Shown here in pieces: positions 14,803 through 21,762 of a stretch of DNA of 64,000 bases. A program made the position numbers and the translations under genes. The DNA is taken from contig NZ_JAIVMC010000006.1 of the NCBI RefSeq assembly GCF_020177265.1, forward strand, positions 1 to 64,000, written 5' to 3'. The notes under the pieces are model-generated. The model was given only the letters and a program-made list of their open reading frames with translations, had not been told where the DNA came from and searched no databases. Positions within the stretch are counted from its first letter, which is position 1; each line of letters starts with the position of its first letter. This stretch comes from Pseudooceanicola marinus (GTDB taxonomy: Bacteria > Pseudomonadota > Alphaproteobacteria > Rhodobacterales > Rhodobacteraceae).

Positions 14803-15807
14803 TCAGGAGAAATCCATCGGCAGGGTGAAGGTATAGCTCGACTGGGTCAGCCCGTTCGGTGCCGAGGGCAGGCGCCCGGCCCGCTGCACCGCCTGCACCG
14901 CTGCCTGGTCGAAGGCCGCCTGGCCCGACGACCGCGCGATGGAGGCGCCCAGGATCGTCCCGTCGCGCCCCACGGTGATGCGCATCACCACGCGCCCGGT
15001 CTGGCCCCGCATCCCGTTGGGGAAACGTTTGCGGCGCTCGATGCGCGAGCGGATCTTGGCGCCCCAGACCGCCTGCAGCTTGGCTTCCTGCTGGGCGTTG
15101 CCGGTACGCACCTGGGCGTTGCCGGCGTTGCCGGCCTGCGAGGCCCCGCCGGACCCGGCCGCGCGCTGTGTCACGCCGCCCGCGCCGCCCTGGCGGGCCT
15201 GCTGGGTGCGATCGGCGGGACGCGCCTCGGGCGTCGGTTCGGGGGCGGGTTGCGGCTCCGGCGGGGGCGGCGGGGCCGCCTCGACCTGGGGCGCGGCGCG
15301 TTCGGGGCGGGTCATCGGGCGCAGGCTGGCCACGGGGGCCAGCGCCGGCGCCTCATCCTCGACCACCTCGGGTTGCTCCTCGGCCGGGGTGGGCTCCGGC
15401 TCAGGCTGCATCTCGGGGACCTCCTGCGGCACCTCCTCGGGGGGCTGCGGGGGCGGGGGCACCTCGGTGTCGAAGCTGGGCACGCTGACGGTGTCGGTGC
15501 TGGCCTCGGCCACATCGAGGCTGGGCATGCTGGGCGGCGGGGTCTCCTCGATCACCGGGCGGGCGATCTCCTCCACCGGCTCGGGCTCCACCGGCTCCGG
15601 CGCCTCGGGGTCCACCTCCGCCTCGGGCGGGGTCTCCCAGGCGCGGATCATCTCCTCCATCCCTTCGGGCGCGCCCTGCAGGGTGACCATGGCCTCGCCC
15701 CCGGAACCACCGGATTCGCTGCCCGACGCGGGCACGCGGATCGCCAGGGCCAGATGCAGACCCACGGCCAGGGCCACGAAGGCCAGGGCTTCGGCAAGAC
15801 GTTTCAT
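14803..15807 (-). CDS. tonB: TonB, energy-transducing protein
   Basis: Links the inner-membrane ExbB/ExbD proton motor to outer-membrane receptors. The 334 residues run as: short cytoplasmic start and one N-terminal membrane anchor (LAFVALAVGLHLALAI, ~8-23), a long Pro/Glu-rich periplasmic spacer (about 60-190) with repeats such as EPEPVEE and PPPPEPQPAPEPTPE, and a C-terminal TonB domain (QAVWGAKIRSRIERRKRFPNG, GRVVMRITVGRDG, FDQAAVQAVQRAG). Its ATG overlaps the exbD2 stop (ATGA). No TonB-dependent receptor is in the window. The neighbouring siderophore ABC transporter suggests a ferric-siderophore role. Confidence 0.95.
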   Translation of the reverse strand: MKRLAEALAFVALAVGLHLALAIRVPASGSESGGSGGEAMVTLQGAPEGMEEMIRAWETPPEAEVDPEAPEPVEPEPVEEIARPVIEETPPPSMPSLDVAEASTDTVSVPSFDTEVPPPPQPPEEVPQEVPEMQPEPEPTPAEEQPEVVEDEAPALAPVASLRPMTRPERAAPQVEAAPPPPPEPQPAPEPTPEARPADRTQQARQGGAGGVTQRAAGSGGASQAGNAGNAQVRTGNAQQEAKLQAVWGAKIRSRIERRKRFPNGMRGQTGRVVMRITVGRDGTILGASIARSSGQAAFDQAAVQAVQRAGRLPSAPNGLTQSSYTFTLPMDFS

Positions 15808-16217
15808 TGCGGCGCCACCACAAGCGAGACCTCCGACAGGCCCGCCTCCGTCAGCGCCTTCAGCACGCGGGCGACCTCGGCGGCCTCCGTCTGCGCATCG
15901 GCGCGCAGCTGCGGCGCCTCACCGCCCGGCGCGGCCTGCGCCCGGGTGGCGAAGGCCGCGATGGCCGCCTCGCCCCGCGCCTCCTCGAAGCCCGCCTCGC
16001 CCTCGGGCGAGAGGTAGAGAACGGGGGCTTCGACGGCCTCGGCGCCCTCCTCGGCGCGCGGCGGTTCCACCTCGAAGGGTTCCGGCGGCGCCAGGCGCGA
16101 AGTCATCAGGAAGAAGATCAGCAGCAGGAAGACCACGTTGATCATCGGCACGATGCTTTCGCCCTTCGGCCGACGCGGCGGCGGGGTGAAGCTCATGGTC
16201 ATGGGCGACTTTGCCAT
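15804..16217 (-). CDS. ExbD-family protein 2, with Asn in place of the transmembrane Asp
   Basis: A 137-residue ExbD/TolR-type protein: short cytoplasmic N-terminus, one TM helix (about 26-42) and a periplasmic domain (about 45-137). The helix reads VPMINVVFLLLIFFLM: residue 27 is Asn where ExbD1 next door (PMIDVVFLLL) and characterised ExbD proteins have the protonatable Asp. The codon is AAC versus GAC in ExbD1, so it is a real substitution in this read. The rest of the helix and domain look intact, and the gene sits 4 nt after exbD1 and overlaps tonB by 4 nt, so it is probably expressed. The start at 16217 follows the exbD1 stop; longer frames would overlap exbD1. Confidence 0.88.
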   Translation of the reverse strand: MAKSPMTMSFTPPPRRPKGESIVPMINVVFLLLIFFLMTSRLAPPEPFEVEPPRAEEGAEAVEAPVLYLSPEGEAGFEEARGEAAIAAFATRAQAAPGGEAPQLRADAQTEAAEVARVLKALTEAGLSEVSLVVAPQ

Positions 16218-16221
16218 CGGA

Positions 16222-16608
16222 TCACTCCACCAGCACGAGGTTGGTAAAGCCCGCGGCGCGCAGGGCGCTGGCCACGTCCACGACCCGTTGCAGGGGCGCG
16301 CCGTCACGCCCACGCAGGATGATCGTGTCCGAGGGCCGCTCGGTCAGTGCGCGCAGGCGTTCGGCCAGGGCCTCCGCCGTCGTCTCGCGGCCGTTCAGGG
16401 TCAGGCCCTCCGGCCCCACGTCCAGCAGGCGCGGCGGCCCGGCGTAGGCGCTGCCCCCCTGAGACGAGGCGAGCGGCAAGGGCAGCACCTCGTCGGCGCC
16501 AAAGCGCGAGGCCAGCATGAAGAAGACCAGCAGCAGGAAGACCACGTCGATCATCGGGGTGAGCGAGGGCTTCCGGCGCGGGCGCGGGGTATGGTCGAGG
16601 AAGGACAT
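16222..16608 (-). CDS. exbD: ExbD-family protein 1 (canonical Asp)
   Basis: A 128-residue ExbD: cytoplasmic N-terminus with basic residues (PRPRRKPSLTP), one TM helix carrying the essential acidic residue (PMIDVVFLLLVFFML, Asp21), and a periplasmic domain containing LTLNGRETTAEALAERL and DTIILRGRDGAPLQRVVDV. With ExbB it forms the proton-driven motor for TonB. It is placed 21 nt after exbB and 4 nt before a second exbD. Confidence 0.94.
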   Translation of the reverse strand: MSFLDHTPRPRRKPSLTPMIDVVFLLLVFFMLASRFGADEVLPLPLASSQGGSAYAGPPRLLDVGPEGLTLNGRETTAEALAERLRALTERPSDTIILRGRDGAPLQRVVDVASALRAAGFTNLVLVE

Positions 16609-16629: not shown

Positions 16630-17784
16630 TTACTGCGCGGCCAGCTTGGTGATGTTCTCGCCCATGCCGTCACCGGGCAGATCGGCCACGAAGATCCGGG
16701 CGGAGATATCCTCCAGGTCGGCGCGCAGGTTGTCCAGCACCGCCTCGAACCAGGTCAGCGCGGCGGAGGCCGGGATCGCCACGGCCATACCGGCGGCGGT
16801 GGTCAGCAGCGCTTCCCAGATGCCGCCCGCCAGCATCGACGGATCGGCCCGGCTGCCCGCTTCCTGCAGGGCCTGGAAGGCGGAGATCATGCCCATCACC
16901 GTGCCCAGCAGACCCAGCAGGGGCGCGATGGTCGAGATCAGTTCCAGCGCGCGCAGAGCAGACCCCTGCCCGGCCAGCAGGCGGCGGGCGACGCGGCTGG
17001 TCTCCTCGCGGGCGGCCTCGTCCGACAGGGTCAGGCGGGCGCGCATGGCGGCGCGGGTCAGGCGCGAGCGGACGCCCTTGCGGCCCTCGATGGTGTCCAT
17101 GGCGATGCCGGCCTCGCCGTTTTCCCAGGCCTCGACGGCCTTGCGGGAAGTGCGGCGCGACCAGGCGCCGGCCAGGACAAGGCGCCAGATCTTCCACAGG
17201 ATCAGTGCGACGGTGACGACCGACAGAGCGGCGATGGCCCAGATCGCCGGGCCGCCGTTGACCAGAAAGTCCTGGGTGCGGGCCCAGGCTCCGGCCAGGC
17301 CGGCCTCGGGGGCCGGCGCAGGGGCGGCGGCGTCCAGATCGGGCGCCAGTTCTTCTGCGGCGGTTTCAGCCAGGGTCGTGGCACCGTCGGTGGCCGGGCT
17401 GGCCTCCGTCGTGGTGGTGGTCTCGGGGGCGGTGGTGGTCTCGGGGGCAGCGTCGGTTGCGGGAGCGGCCGTGCCGGTCTCCGCCGTCTGCTCCGTCCCC
17501 TCGGCAGTCGTACTCTCGGCGGTCGTTTCGGGGGCGTTTGGCGCCGGGGCGGTGGTCGTCTCGGCGGGGGCGCTGTCCGTGGTGGGCACCGTCGGTGCCT
17601 CGTCCGTCGCGGCGCTGCCGGCCTCGGGGCTGCCCATGGTGGGGGCCATGTCGCCCGAGACCTGCGGGGCGTTGTCCGCTGCGGGGGCCGCCGGGGCCTC
17701 CTGCGCGATCGCCGGTGCGGCGGAGAGCAGAGCGGCCATCGCCGCCGAGAGGATCAGGGCCTGTCGTGCCTGCCGAATTGCCAT
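16630..17784 (-). CDS. exbB: ExbB with signal peptide and long Thr/Ala/Pro/Glu-rich periplasmic extension
   Basis: Pentameric scaffold of the TonB motor (MotA/TolQ/ExbB family). From the ATG at 17784 (AAGGGAG eight nt upstream) the 384-residue protein has a cleavable-looking signal peptide (1-28, ending AAPAIAQ), a low-complexity linker (~29-165) dominated by Thr, Ala, Pro and Glu, a first TM helix (~180-200), and the conserved core with LISTIAPLLGLLGTVMGMISAFQ and LLTTAAGMAVAIPASAA forming TM2 and TM3. N-terminal extensions occur in some other ExbB proteins; the length and composition here are notable. It is the first gene of exbB-exbD1-exbD2-tonB. Confidence 0.94.
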   Translation of the reverse strand: MAIRQARQALILSAAMAALLSAAPAIAQEAPAAPAADNAPQVSGDMAPTMGSPEAGSAATDEAPTVPTTDSAPAETTTAPAPNAPETTAESTTAEGTEQTAETGTAAPATDAAPETTTAPETTTTTEASPATDGATTLAETAAEELAPDLDAAAPAPAPEAGLAGAWARTQDFLVNGGPAIWAIAALSVVTVALILWKIWRLVLAGAWSRRTSRKAVEAWENGEAGIAMDTIEGRKGVRSRLTRAAMRARLTLSDEAAREETSRVARRLLAGQGSALRALELISTIAPLLGLLGTVMGMISAFQALQEAGSRADPSMLAGGIWEALLTTAAGMAVAIPASAALTWFEAVLDNLRADLEDISARIFVADLPGDGMGENITKLAAQ

Positions 17785-18106: not shown

Positions 18107-18859
18107 TCAGACCAGAACCACGGGCCGTCCGTCCTGGTGGGAGATCTCGGCATCGGTGCCGAAGACATTGGTCAGCAGGTCCTGGGTCACAATCTCGTGC
18201 GGGGCGCCCATGGCGGCCACGCGGCCCTCGTGCAGGGCGATGATCCGGTCGGCAAAACGGGCGGCGTAGTTGATGTCGTGCAGGACGATGACGATGGTCT
18301 TGCCGTCCTCGTCGGCCATCTGCCGCAGCAGGCGCATCAGGCTGCGGGCGCCCGCGATGTCGAGATTGTTCAGGGGCTCGTCCAGCAGCAGGTAGTCGGT
18401 GTCCTGGGCGAAGGCCATGGCGACGAAGGCGCGCTGGCGCTGACCGCCGGAGATCTCGTCGAGGAAGCGATGCCGCATGGCGCCCAGACCGAAGCGCGCG
18501 ATGGCGCTTTCGACGATGGCGTGATCCTCGGGGCCGGGGCGCCCGCGGTGCCAGGGATAGCGGCCGAAGCCCACCAGTTCCTCCACCCGCAGCCGGGCGG
18601 AGACATGGGTCGACTGGGCCATGATCGCCAGATGCCGGGCCAGCTCGCGGTCGCTGACCTGGCCGATCTGCAGGCCGTCGACCTCGATCTTTCCCGTCTT
18701 CAGGGACGACAGCCGGGCGATCAGCGACAGCAGCGTCGACTTGCCCGCCCCATTGGGACCGATCAGCGCGGTGATGCCGCCCTTGGGGATCTCGACCGAG
18801 ATGTCGTGCAGGATCGGCGCTGCGCCGATGGAATGGCTCACGTTGCTTACGCGGATCAT
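18107..18859 (-). CDS. Siderophore ABC transporter, ATP-binding protein
   Basis: A 250-residue ABC ATPase energising import of ferric siderophore across the inner membrane. Walker A is GPNGAGKST, the signature is SGGQRQRAF, and Walker B is YLLLDEPLNNLD, with the switch His in VLHDINYAARFAD. It is closest in pattern to the FatE/CeuD/YclP-type iron-complex ATPases, as expected from its partners. Its ATG at 18859 overlaps the preceding permease by 4 nt. It is the last gene of the transporter; 321 nt separate it from exbB. Confidence 0.93.
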   Translation of the reverse strand: MIRVSNVSHSIGAAPILHDISVEIPKGGITALIGPNGAGKSTLLSLIARLSSLKTGKIEVDGLQIGQVSDRELARHLAIMAQSTHVSARLRVEELVGFGRYPWHRGRPGPEDHAIVESAIARFGLGAMRHRFLDEISGGQRQRAFVAMAFAQDTDYLLLDEPLNNLDIAGARSLMRLLRQMADEDGKTIVIVLHDINYAARFADRIIALHEGRVAAMGAPHEIVTQDLLTNVFGTDAEISHQDGRPVVLV

Positions 18860-19881
18860 GCGCGTTTCCTCTTCAGCAGGAGGGCCAGGAACAGCGCCCC
18901 GCCCAGGGCTTCGATCACCACGGCAATGGGGGTGGTCAGGGCCAAGACCCGTTCCAGCACGGTCTGGCCGCCAACCAGCACCACGCAGCCCGTCAGCGCC
19001 GCCGAGGGCAGCAGGATGGCATGGCGTTCGGTGGGGGTGACGGTATGGGCCAGGGCCGAGACGATCAGGCCGAAGAAGGCCGCCATGGGCCCGACCAGCG
19101 CCGTCGCGGCGGCCACCAGCACGCAGATCAGCACCAGCACGATGGACTGGCCCCGGCGCGGCGGCTCCCCCAGGCTCAGCGCGACGGTATCGCCCAGGCC
19201 CAGCACATCCAGCCGGTGGCGCATCCGCCAGGCCAGCCACAGAACCGGCAGGGTGACCGCGGCGGTCAGCGGCAGCAACACCGGGTCCACCGTGTTGAAC
19301 CGCGCGTAGCTGACCGAGGTGACGACCGAGAACTCCGCCGGGTCGATCAGCCGCTGCACGAATTCCGTGGCCGAGCGCAGGAAGACGCCGAAGATGATGC
19401 CCGTCAGGACCAGCCGCATCATCTCCCCCCGCGCGCCCCGTCGCAGGACGACGAACAGGCCCAGCCCCAGCAGTGACATCATCGCGGTGTTCAGCGCAAA
19501 CAGCAGCCCGGTCGGCAGGGCGATGTAGCCGGTGGCCCCGAAGAGATGCACCAGCAGCGCCAGGATCATCACGTAAAGCGCATCGAACCCAAGAAGCGAG
19601 GGCGTCAGGATGCGGTTGCCGGTGATGGTCTGGAACAGGATCGTCGCCACCGACAGGCAGCTAGCCACCAGCAGCATCGCCGCCAGTTTCTGCCCCCGGA
19701 AGGGCAGGATGAACCCCCAGGAGCCCTTGGCGCCGTAGACCATGTAGACGGCGGAGGCCACGGCGACCGCCAAGGCCAGCCAGATCACCCGGCGCCCCAT
19801 GGCGGGCGGCGGCGCGGCCTGCGCGCCCTCCGCCCCAGCCTGCGCGCGCGGCGCGGTGGTATCGCCGGTCAGCTCAGCCAT
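18856..19881 (-). CDS. Siderophore ABC transporter, permease (FecCD family) 2
   Basis: A 341-residue integral membrane protein of the FecCD/BtuC family with about nine to ten hydrophobic helices. Recognisable segments are LVASCLSVATILFQTITGN (family motif with TGN after the second helix), LLGFDALYVM, GIIFGVFLRSATEF and LGLGDTVALSLGEPPRRG. The last of these is the cytoplasmic coupling region that contacts the ATPase. The ATG at 19881 overlaps the end of permease 1 by 8 nt; I prefer it to one 12 codons upstream, which would extend further into permease 1. A charged N-terminal tail (~1-25) precedes the first helix. Confidence 0.92.
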   Translation of the reverse strand: MAELTGDTTAPRAQAGAEGAQAAPPPAMGRRVIWLALAVAVASAVYMVYGAKGSWGFILPFRGQKLAAMLLVASCLSVATILFQTITGNRILTPSLLGFDALYVMILALLVHLFGATGYIALPTGLLFALNTAMMSLLGLGLFVVLRRGARGEMMRLVLTGIIFGVFLRSATEFVQRLIDPAEFSVVTSVSYARFNTVDPVLLPLTAAVTLPVLWLAWRMRHRLDVLGLGDTVALSLGEPPRRGQSIVLVLICVLVAAATALVGPMAAFFGLIVSALAHTVTPTERHAILLPSAALTGCVVLVGGQTVLERVLALTTPIAVVIEALGGALFLALLLKRKRA

Positions 19882-20812
19882 GACGCGGCTCGTTGTAAAG
19901 AAGGTAGAGGAAGACACCGGCCCCCACGACGCCCACCAGCGTGGCCACCGGGATCTCGTAGGGCGCGCGCAGCACGCGGCCCAGGATATCGGCGGCCAGC
20001 ACCAGGGCGGCGCCGGTAAAGGCGGAGACGGGAATGGCGCGGCGCAGGTTGTCGCCCATGCGACGGGCGATGATGTTGGGCACGATCAGCCCGACGAAGG
20101 GGATGGCACCCAGGGTGACGACGACCATGGCCGTGGTCACCGACAGCGCGGCCAGACCGGCGGCGGTAATCGCCTGCACGTTCAGACCCAGCCCGCGCGC
20201 CGCATCCGTGCCCAGGGCCAGTACCGTCAGCCGGTCGGCGATCAGCCAGGTGGCGGCAGCGGCGGCACCGGCGATCCACAGCAGCTCGTACCGACCCGCC
20301 AGCACGCCCGATAGCTCGCCAGTCAGCCAGACACCGATGAATTGCAGCATGTCGCCCTGATAGGCGATGAATGTGACGACGGCCCCAATCAGCCCGCCGT
20401 AGATCAGCGCCACCAGAGGCACCAGCAGGGGCTGGGTTGGCGGCAGCGGCCGCAGGATCAGCAGCAGCCCCGCCGAGCCGACCAGCGTGGTCAGCGCGGC
20501 GATGGACATCTTCGCCCAGATGGCGGTGGCGGGAAACAGCATGGCGGCAATCAGCACGCCCAGGGCCGCGGACTGGCCCGCACCGGCCGTCATCGGCTCG
20601 ACGAAGCGGTTCCGGGCCAGGATCTGCATGATCTGCCCGCTGACGGCCAGGGCGGCTCCGGCCAGCATCGCGGCGAAGGTGCGCGGAAGGCGCGAGATCA
20701 GGAGCAGCCGCTGGCTGTCCGGATCATGCAGGAAATCCCCCAGGCTCACCGGCACGGCACCGATGAACAGGGACAGGATGGCGAGAGGCCCCAGCACTGC
20801 CAGGGCCTGCAT
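19874..20812 (-). CDS. Siderophore ABC transporter, permease (FecCD family) 1
   Basis: A 312-residue polytopic permease: RLPRTFAAMLAGAALAVSGQIMQILARN is the family hallmark (residues ~41-68), followed by GAGQSAALGVLIAA, a helix pair with FIAYQGDMLQFIGVWLTGELSG, and the coupling region ALGTDAARGLGLNV. LGAIPFVGLIVPNIIARRMG is the conserved FecCD segment near the C-terminus. It pairs with permease 2 to form the heterodimeric channel. It starts 14 nt after the stop of the binding-protein gene, same strand. Confidence 0.93.
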   Translation of the reverse strand: MQALAVLGPLAILSLFIGAVPVSLGDFLHDPDSQRLLLISRLPRTFAAMLAGAALAVSGQIMQILARNRFVEPMTAGAGQSAALGVLIAAMLFPATAIWAKMSIAALTTLVGSAGLLLILRPLPPTQPLLVPLVALIYGGLIGAVVTFIAYQGDMLQFIGVWLTGELSGVLAGRYELLWIAGAAAAATWLIADRLTVLALGTDAARGLGLNVQAITAAGLAALSVTTAMVVVTLGAIPFVGLIVPNIIARRMGDNLRRAIPVSAFTGAALVLAADILGRVLRAPYEIPVATLVGVVGAGVFLYLLYNEPRHG

Positions 20813-20826
20813 GGCTAGCGGCAGTT

Positions 20827-21762
20827 TCAGGACGCGGTCTCCGCCAGGCCCTCGGTGATGGCGTCCAGCACGGTCATCAGCGACTGCACCCCGCCCGAGG
20901 AGATGTACATCTCCGCCGCCGGCACGAAGAGGACGCGATCCTCCTTCCAGGCGGTGGTGGAATGGACCAACTCGTTGTCCAGCGTGGTCAGCCCGCTTTG
21001 CGTATCGGCCTGGATGGCCGCGCCGCGATCGACGACGATCAGCGTGTCGGGGTTCATCTCGGCGATATACTCGAAGGAAATCGCCTCGCCATGGGTGGTG
21101 GCGTCGATCTGGTCGGCGGCGGCGGGCCAGTTCAGCTGGCTGTGGATCCAGCCGAAGCGCGAGCCTTCGCCATAGGCCGACACCTTGGGACCGTTGGTCA
21201 GCACGATCAGGGCGTTGCCCCCCAGCTCGGCCACGGCGTCCCGCGCGGCGGCCAGTTTCTCCTCGACCTGGGCGGCCAGCTCGTCGGCCTTCTCCTCTTC
21301 GCCCAGCAGGGCGCCGAAGGCCTCCAGGCGGGCCAGGCCGTCGGTGACGGCATCAGGTCCCACGGACATGTCGGCCACCGGCGCGATCCGCTCCAGCGCG
21401 TCCTTCTGTTTCAGCGAGCGCAGGCCGACGACGATCAGGTCGGGCTGCATGGCGGCCACGGCCTCAAAATCGGGTTCGAAGAGCGTGCCGACGACCTCCG
21501 CATCCGCGGCCTGCTCGGCGATATGCGGCACGTAGATCGGGCCCGGCACACCGGCGGGCACATGGCCCAGGGCGGCCAGGGTGTCGACCGAGGCCAGCTC
21601 ATAGGCGACGATGGTCTCGGGCACCGCGGGCAGCTCCATCGCGCCCTCGGCGGTCTCGAAGGTGACGGGCTGGGCCTGGGCGGCGCCGGCCATCAGGGCA
21701 GCGGCGGCACAGAGGGCGGCAGGGCGCGGAAGATGCGCGGCAACACGCTCGAAAAGGGTCAT
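20827..21762 (-). CDS. Siderophore-binding periplasmic protein (CeuE/FatB/YclQ-like)
   Basis: A 311-residue class III substrate-binding protein. The signal peptide ends at AGAAQAQ (about residue 30) and has no lipobox, so it is a soluble periplasmic protein. VAYELASVDTLAALGHVPAGVP is typical of the CeuE/FatB/YclQ group, which bind catecholate-type ferric siderophores. LIVVGLRSLKQKDALERIAPV and DTLIVVDRGAA are further family landmarks. AGGAG lies six nt before the ATG. It is the first gene of the transporter operon and diverges from the DUF2218 gene. The actual ligand is inferred from family only. Confidence 0.9.
   Translation of the reverse strand: MTLFERVAAHLPRPAALCAAAALMAGAAQAQPVTFETAEGAMELPAVPETIVAYELASVDTLAALGHVPAGVPGPIYVPHIAEQAADAEVVGTLFEPDFEAVAAMQPDLIVVGLRSLKQKDALERIAPVADMSVGPDAVTDGLARLEAFGALLGEEEKADELAAQVEEKLAAARDAVAELGGNALIVLTNGPKVSAYGEGSRFGWIHSQLNWPAAADQIDATTHGEAISFEYIAEMNPDTLIVVDRGAAIQADTQSGLTTLDNELVHSTTAWKEDRVLFVPAAEMYISSGGVQSLMTVLDAITEGLAETAS

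Follow-up and report, generated by a model that had tools for sequence, protein, structure and literature searches.

The ExbB-ExbD motors described for Escherichia coli and Serratia comprise an ExbB ring with pore threonines, ExbD with a transmembrane (TM) helix and a periplasmic domain, and TonB. They contain two identical ExbD chains and with them two TM aspartates. In the portions of the literature covered here, models of ExbBD, TolQR and MotAB rest on two equivalent Asp that alternate, with 36 degrees of rotation per proton in the published 5:2 models (PMC12215075), or need both to be protonated, one MotAB model allowing rotation only when both sites carry a proton (PMC9389320). In the Serratia structure, according to the accessible text, the positions of the two Asp differ from each other: the first lies at a Thr of ExbB, the second at a subunit interface (PMC9008036).

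Tandem exbD genes are already known. In Xanthomonas campestris and Flavobacterium psychrophilum, exbD1-exbD2 likewise lie in tandem within one ton cluster (PMC3551730), a likeness by gene arrangement alone in the text available; the words asparagine and aspartate are absent from the main text of that paper. The heme cluster of Ruegeria sp. TM1040 contains exbB, exbD1, a 'duplicate' exbD1a and tonB, and its HmuR receptor is required for growth on heme (PMC5225302). The likeness here is one of gene content, and the available part of that paper calls the second exbD a duplicate and leaves its residue unmentioned. The AglR-AglQ-AglS system of Myxococcus also combines a single ring protein with two distinct MotB/ExbD-like proteins, but it is a gliding motor; the accessible sections of PMC9389320 and PMC9120999 discuss a two-subunit motor, treat the heterodimer as unknown, and report Asn in neither chain. 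No report of Asn in a tandem ExbD was found in the part of the open literature surveyed, a scope that leaves aside subscription papers and preprints.

The window analyzed here, a 64,000-nucleotide stretch of a Pseudooceanicola marinus contig, has the same motor parts as E. coli and Serratia, except that the second ExbD chain is encoded by a distinct gene with Asn at the TM site. The exbB-exbD1-exbD2-tonB genes lie downstream of a FecCD-type ABC importer on the same strand (Table 1). The original prediction had noted an Asp (GAC) in ExbD1 and an Asn (AAC) in ExbD2, and both residues were read at those codons: Asp21 lies within LTPMIDVVFLLLVFFML (also given as LTPMIDVVFLLL) and Asn27 within IVPMINVVFLLLIFFLM (also given as IVPMINVVFLLL). 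It had also described both exbD genes as tightly placed between exbB and tonB, which the coordinates bear out, with 21 nt from the exbB stop to the exbD1 start, 4 nt between exbD1 and exbD2, and a 4-nt overlap of exbD2 with tonB. ExbB has an apparent signal peptide, and its N-terminal region ahead of the first TM helix includes a long stretch rich in Thr, Ala and Pro, an extension that resembles the long ExbB of Alphaproteobacteria described in the accessible part of PMC9008036.

Table 1. Features of the ton locus and the neighboring importer, by position in the window. The exbB start codon at 17784 was chosen within an open frame that extends further.
Feature	Position	Strand	Description
tonB	14803-15807	-	sole TonB_C match in the genome
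exbD2	15804-16217	-	137 aa, ATG start, ExbD family, Asn27 at the transmembrane Asp site
Asn27 codon AAC of exbD2	16139-16137	-	also matched by the Asn DNA pattern at 16120-16142
exbD1	16222-16608	-	128 aa, ExbD family, usual Asp21
Asp21 codon GAC of exbD1	16548-16546	-	
exbB	16630-17784	-	MotA/TolQ/ExbB ring subunit
iron-chelate type ABC importer	18107-21762	-	ATPase, two FecCD permeases, periplasmic binding protein

Both ExbD proteins are members of the Pfam ExbD/TolR family PF02472 (69.3 bits for ExbD2 and 75.5 bits for ExbD1, cut-off 25.4). Both scored below the cut-off of the NCBIfam tolR equivalog (30.3-31.4 bits for ExbD2 and 35.0-35.9 bits for ExbD1, against 127.3), and ExbD1 also scored below that of the ExbD_1 equivalog (31.0 bits against 152.95). 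The AlphaFold model of ExbD2 (mean pLDDT 83) has a TM helix at residues 25-39 and an ExbD/TolR periplasmic domain, and its best matches among PDB structures were TolR (5by4, E 3.1e-4) and ExbD (8pek, E 1.1e-3). By sequence, the PDB contained no close relative of ExbD2, the best match having an E value of 0.29. No match was found in libraries of defence and phage families. ExbD2 is thus an ExbD/TolR family member by sequence and fold; the proton-carrying TM Asp is present in ExbD1 as Asp21 and replaced in ExbD2 by Asn27, and ExbD2 is accordingly not classed as a proton-carrying ExbD.

The genome contains three ExbD/TolR genes, namely exbD1, exbD2 and one on contig 7. The latter grouped near E. 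coli ExbD in a tree, but we ruled it out as a second ExbD because its score of 135.9 bits to tolR exceeds the cut-off of 127.3. Three MotA/TolQ/ExbB genes were also found: the exbB of the window, a second one beside tolR on contig 7, and a third, weaker match that is probably motA. The tonB of the window accounts for the only match to the TonB C-terminal domain in the genome, which encodes seven TonB-dependent receptor plugs. exbB, exbD and tonB thus occur together in a genome with receptors, as in a Ton system. With one ExbB, one TonB, a separate TolR, two ExbDs and seven plugs, the pair is part of the cell's sole Ton motor. The Asn-type ExbD2 is therefore not a spare next to another Ton system.

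The original prediction would have been undermined if orthologs of ExbD2 mostly carried Asp, and relatives were therefore read at this site. A search with the Asn-type ExbD2 as the query, not seeded on the Asn motif, matched 88 of 120 genomes of the same family. We read 70 loci, 30 of them returned (including the window's own) and 40 fetched, and dropped the weaker matches beyond these, as well as unlisted ones. Besides the window's pair they comprised 68 tandem pairs, of which 53 were Asp/Asn and 15 Asp/Asp; in one relative (L133) the exbD2 reading frame was broken. A second scan of 80 named loci, mostly from Rhodobacterales judging by title, was biased to Asn because one seed contained the Asn motif; it yielded Asp/Asn in all 78 readable pairs, the upstream gene lying past a contig end in the other two loci. 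One of these loci bears the title Nocardioides marinus, which is probably a labelling error. The residue is thus mostly Asn among relatives, and its conservation rules out a local mutation or a sequencing error.

For scans of the class and phylum, we used a degenerate DNA pattern for I-N-x-V-F-L/F-x-L; the sampled class was taken as Alphaproteobacteria, as inferred from named relatives. Of 385 genomes of the class, 56 contained the pattern, which marked an Asn-type ExbD gene in 47 of them. In the other nine genomes the match that was read is not ExbD, with three further matches there left unread. In the phylum, 38 of 398 genomes matched, 14 of them outside the class, where four had Asp/Asn ExbD pairs (L211, L212, L214 and L215) and ten were chance matches. 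Asn thus occurs in further families as well as in four genomes from beyond the class, so that it is not confined to the window's own family. A plasmid search with the ExbD2 of another family gave no match.

A sample independent of the motif was obtained by applying a general family profile to 113 genomes, one per family and at least 90% complete, and choosing tandem pairs by eye from the coordinates. This gave 31 tandem pairs in 29 genomes, all of which were read: 21 were Asp/Asn and 10 Asp/Asp. The Asp/Asn pairs fell in 19 genomes, and hence 19 families, with the Asp gene first in all 21, and six of the 21 had been found only by fetching, since the Asn pattern misses some types. In 14 of these 19 genomes, just one further ExbD-family gene was found. 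One of the 21 pairs (L160, 976-1857) reads as one continuous frame that encodes both an Asp-type and an Asn-type ExbD domain. We set it aside as a natural Asp-Asn fusion, because the assembly is fragmented and the first gene shifts out of its normal frame towards its end, which makes an indel likely.

All tandem pairs read amounted to 231, counting the window's pair once and including some met in two collections; they represent 219 distinct ExbD2 sequences (193 in Asp/Asn pairs, 25 in Asp/Asp pairs and one in a pair cut by a contig end). Of the 231, 205 were Asp/Asn, 25 Asp/Asp and one was cut by a contig end, so that the second gene encoded Asn in 206 cases (205 after an Asp gene, one after the cut gene) and Asp in 25. 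The first gene carried Asp in all 230 readable pairs, and no Asn-first pair, Asn/Asn pair or third residue at the site occurred among the 231. Spacing was at most 20 nt in 204 of the 205 Asp/Asn pairs, with a 4-nt overlap in 68, as measured with exbD2 starting at whichever candidate start codon lies closest to the exbD1 stop, a choice that favors short gaps. Such tight spacing suits coupled, equal synthesis of ExbD1 and ExbD2.

Isolated Asn genes were explained by contig ends (L074 and L113) or by the broken frame of L133. Among 24 non-tandem ExbD-family genes fetched, 20 scored best as classic TolR/ExbD. The remaining four were L287 (at a contig end), L274 and L300, all three matching ExbD1 best though not strongly, and L273, a weak match to ExbD2; no clear solitary ExbD1 or ExbD2 was present among the 24. 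A TolR-like protein in L301 has Glu in place of the TM Asp (APLVEVMLVL).

The history of the Asn-type genes was addressed with a quick tree of 126 rows, from which the trait column had been removed and in which support was low at many forks. It gathered 48 of the 50 Asn rows into a single group, inside which four Asp-type ExbD2 rows were nested, and set the other two Asn rows (L259 and L272) apart; the partners of that ExbD2 group fell mostly in an ExbD1 group. Constraining the 50 Asn rows together with the four nested Asp rows improved the likelihood by 53.8 (p-AU 0.948), which led us to reject several independent origins of Asn, and constraining only the 50 Asn rows to form a clade improved it by 40.2 (p-AU 0.897). 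As the constrained trees improve the likelihood, the Asn genes are compatible with a single ancient ExbD2 lineage that goes back to one duplication and one origin of Asn. The Asp-type ExbD2 genes may be reversions or old Asp lines; the Asn-only constraint likewise was not rejected, and the trees therefore make no choice between the two.

At helix position +4, every Asn-type gene standing second in an Asp/Asn pair (208, own duplicates counted) encoded Leu; of the 25 Asp-type second genes, 16 encoded Phe. These are the 16 that are ExbD2-like by motif and have an Asp partner (L130, L132, L134, L136-L139, L141-L144, L146-L148, L150 and L268), four of which were placed in the tree. They suggest that two Asp can also persist in what seems to be the same lineage, of which they are possibly natural two-Asp versions.

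If exbD2 were a neutral or decaying duplicate, its Asn would be a loss of function without consequence. Asp and Asn codons are only one nucleotide apart, and the broken exbD2 of L133 would be in keeping with decay. Conservation contradicts this explanation, which we regard as highly improbable: only Asn or Asp occurs at the site although the tree of the ExbD2 clade is 43.8 changes per column long, Asn is kept in 193 distinct ExbD2 sequences, and both synonymous codons are in use in the Asp/Asn pairs (139 AAC and 66 AAT). The sequence comparisons thus support the view that Asp/Asn pairing is a lasting change of a motor part rather than a duplicate that picked up a mutation by chance. The original prediction had likewise seen 'not just a duplication', and this holds up in that the Asp/Asn pair is kept in many families and in the cell's only Ton system.

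We propose that ExbD1 and ExbD2 form an obligate heterodimer, with one chain of each in the ExbB pentamer and one protonatable site instead of two, a reading to which we give a probability of roughly 0.55. Its basis in sequence lies in the residues, their pairing and order, their conservation, the intact pore Thr of ExbB and the presence of a single Ton system. The strictness with which the pairing is kept suggests a motor that probably operates with a single proton site. In the same pocket, Asn would take the place of a protonated Asp while always remaining neutral, and only ExbD1 would take up and release protons. If the ring turns as in the published 5:2 models, the protons required per turn would be halved, from ten to five, and the two axle chains would have fixed, different roles towards TonB. 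That these loci represent a widespread class of Ton motors, spread over many families of the class, with a few representatives elsewhere in the phylum, and built on an obligate single-site heterodimer, is a broader proposition that we hold more tentatively, at slightly under even odds.

Two pore Thr that ExbB has in common with its E. coli counterpart, where we take them to be T148 and T181, were conserved as Thr in each of the 196 Asp/Asn loci that have residues at these positions. Both were kept in Asp/Asn and Asp/Asp loci alike. No clear difference in ExbB accounting for Asn versus Asp was found; several other ExbB columns differ between the two types, in a comparison in which the 16 Asp/Asp loci come mostly from one family.

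ExbD forms homodimers, and two homodimer species could thus exist side by side; the number of ionisable sites would be one in an ExbD1-ExbD2 heterodimer and two in an ExbD1 homodimer. ExbD1 homodimers might then be the working motor, with ExbD2 in proton-silent Asn/Asn homodimers or mixed rings, where it would tune output, mark a subset of complexes or relay a receptor signal. E. coli ExbD D25N is called inactive in a passage that is silent on an Asp partner (PMC11658791), and a D25N-like chain would be expected to be inactive alone. The tandem exbD2 of X. campestris is, in the text available, dispensable for iron uptake and needed for another envelope process (PMC3551730), which fits the alternative of a regulatory ExbD2 raised in the original prediction. 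Together, the reported inactivity of E. coli ExbD D25N and the dispensable Xanthomonas gene leave room for a regulatory or silent-dimer role. However, the constant gene order, the tight spacing and the lack of clear solitary genes suit equal amounts of the two proteins, and loss in some lineages would be expected of a regulator. We consider such a role rather unlikely, while regarding it as the chief rival to the heterodimer.

ExbD2 might also reside outside the ExbB pore and tether TonB or peptidoglycan through its periplasmic domain. The fold of this domain is kept, and 48 of 50 ExbD2 rows have a conserved periplasmic Asp that is also present in E. coli ExbD (LRAD/FRAD). Yet in a 49-row ExbD2 alignment, 14 of the 17 invariant residues, Asn27 among them, lie at positions 23-38, in or beside the TM helix. 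That the most conserved part is a TM helix with a polar mid-membrane Asn, needless outside the pore, makes a tether improbable.

Should the heterodimer be correct, the proton cost per turn would be halved, the twofold symmetry of the axle would be broken, and alternation between two Asp would not be a general requirement of 5:2 motors; the sub-lineages with Asp in ExbD2 would then be natural two-site versions. An Asp/Asn pair that occurs in nature, is ancient and is conserved in many lineages offers a ready test of how many proton sites such a motor needs, and chemically distinct axle chains would let structural work separate the two positions.

The motor concerned drives iron and heme uptake in many environmental bacteria. 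In Leisingera caerulea (L280) an Asp/Asn pair is clustered with an iron ABC importer and a siderophore-interacting protein, and a TonB-dependent siderophore receptor is encoded convergently to that cluster. In Phaeobacter inhibens (L282) another Asp/Asn pair lies in a heme cluster with the same ten-gene content as the TM1040 cluster, as far as the latter is described in the accessible text. L282 and L283 are both of the clusters read for a second kind of roseobacter Asp/Asn pair, and in each the gene directly before exbB encodes a small hypothetical protein that probably has a signal peptide (L282, 5517-5948; L283, 5665-6093).
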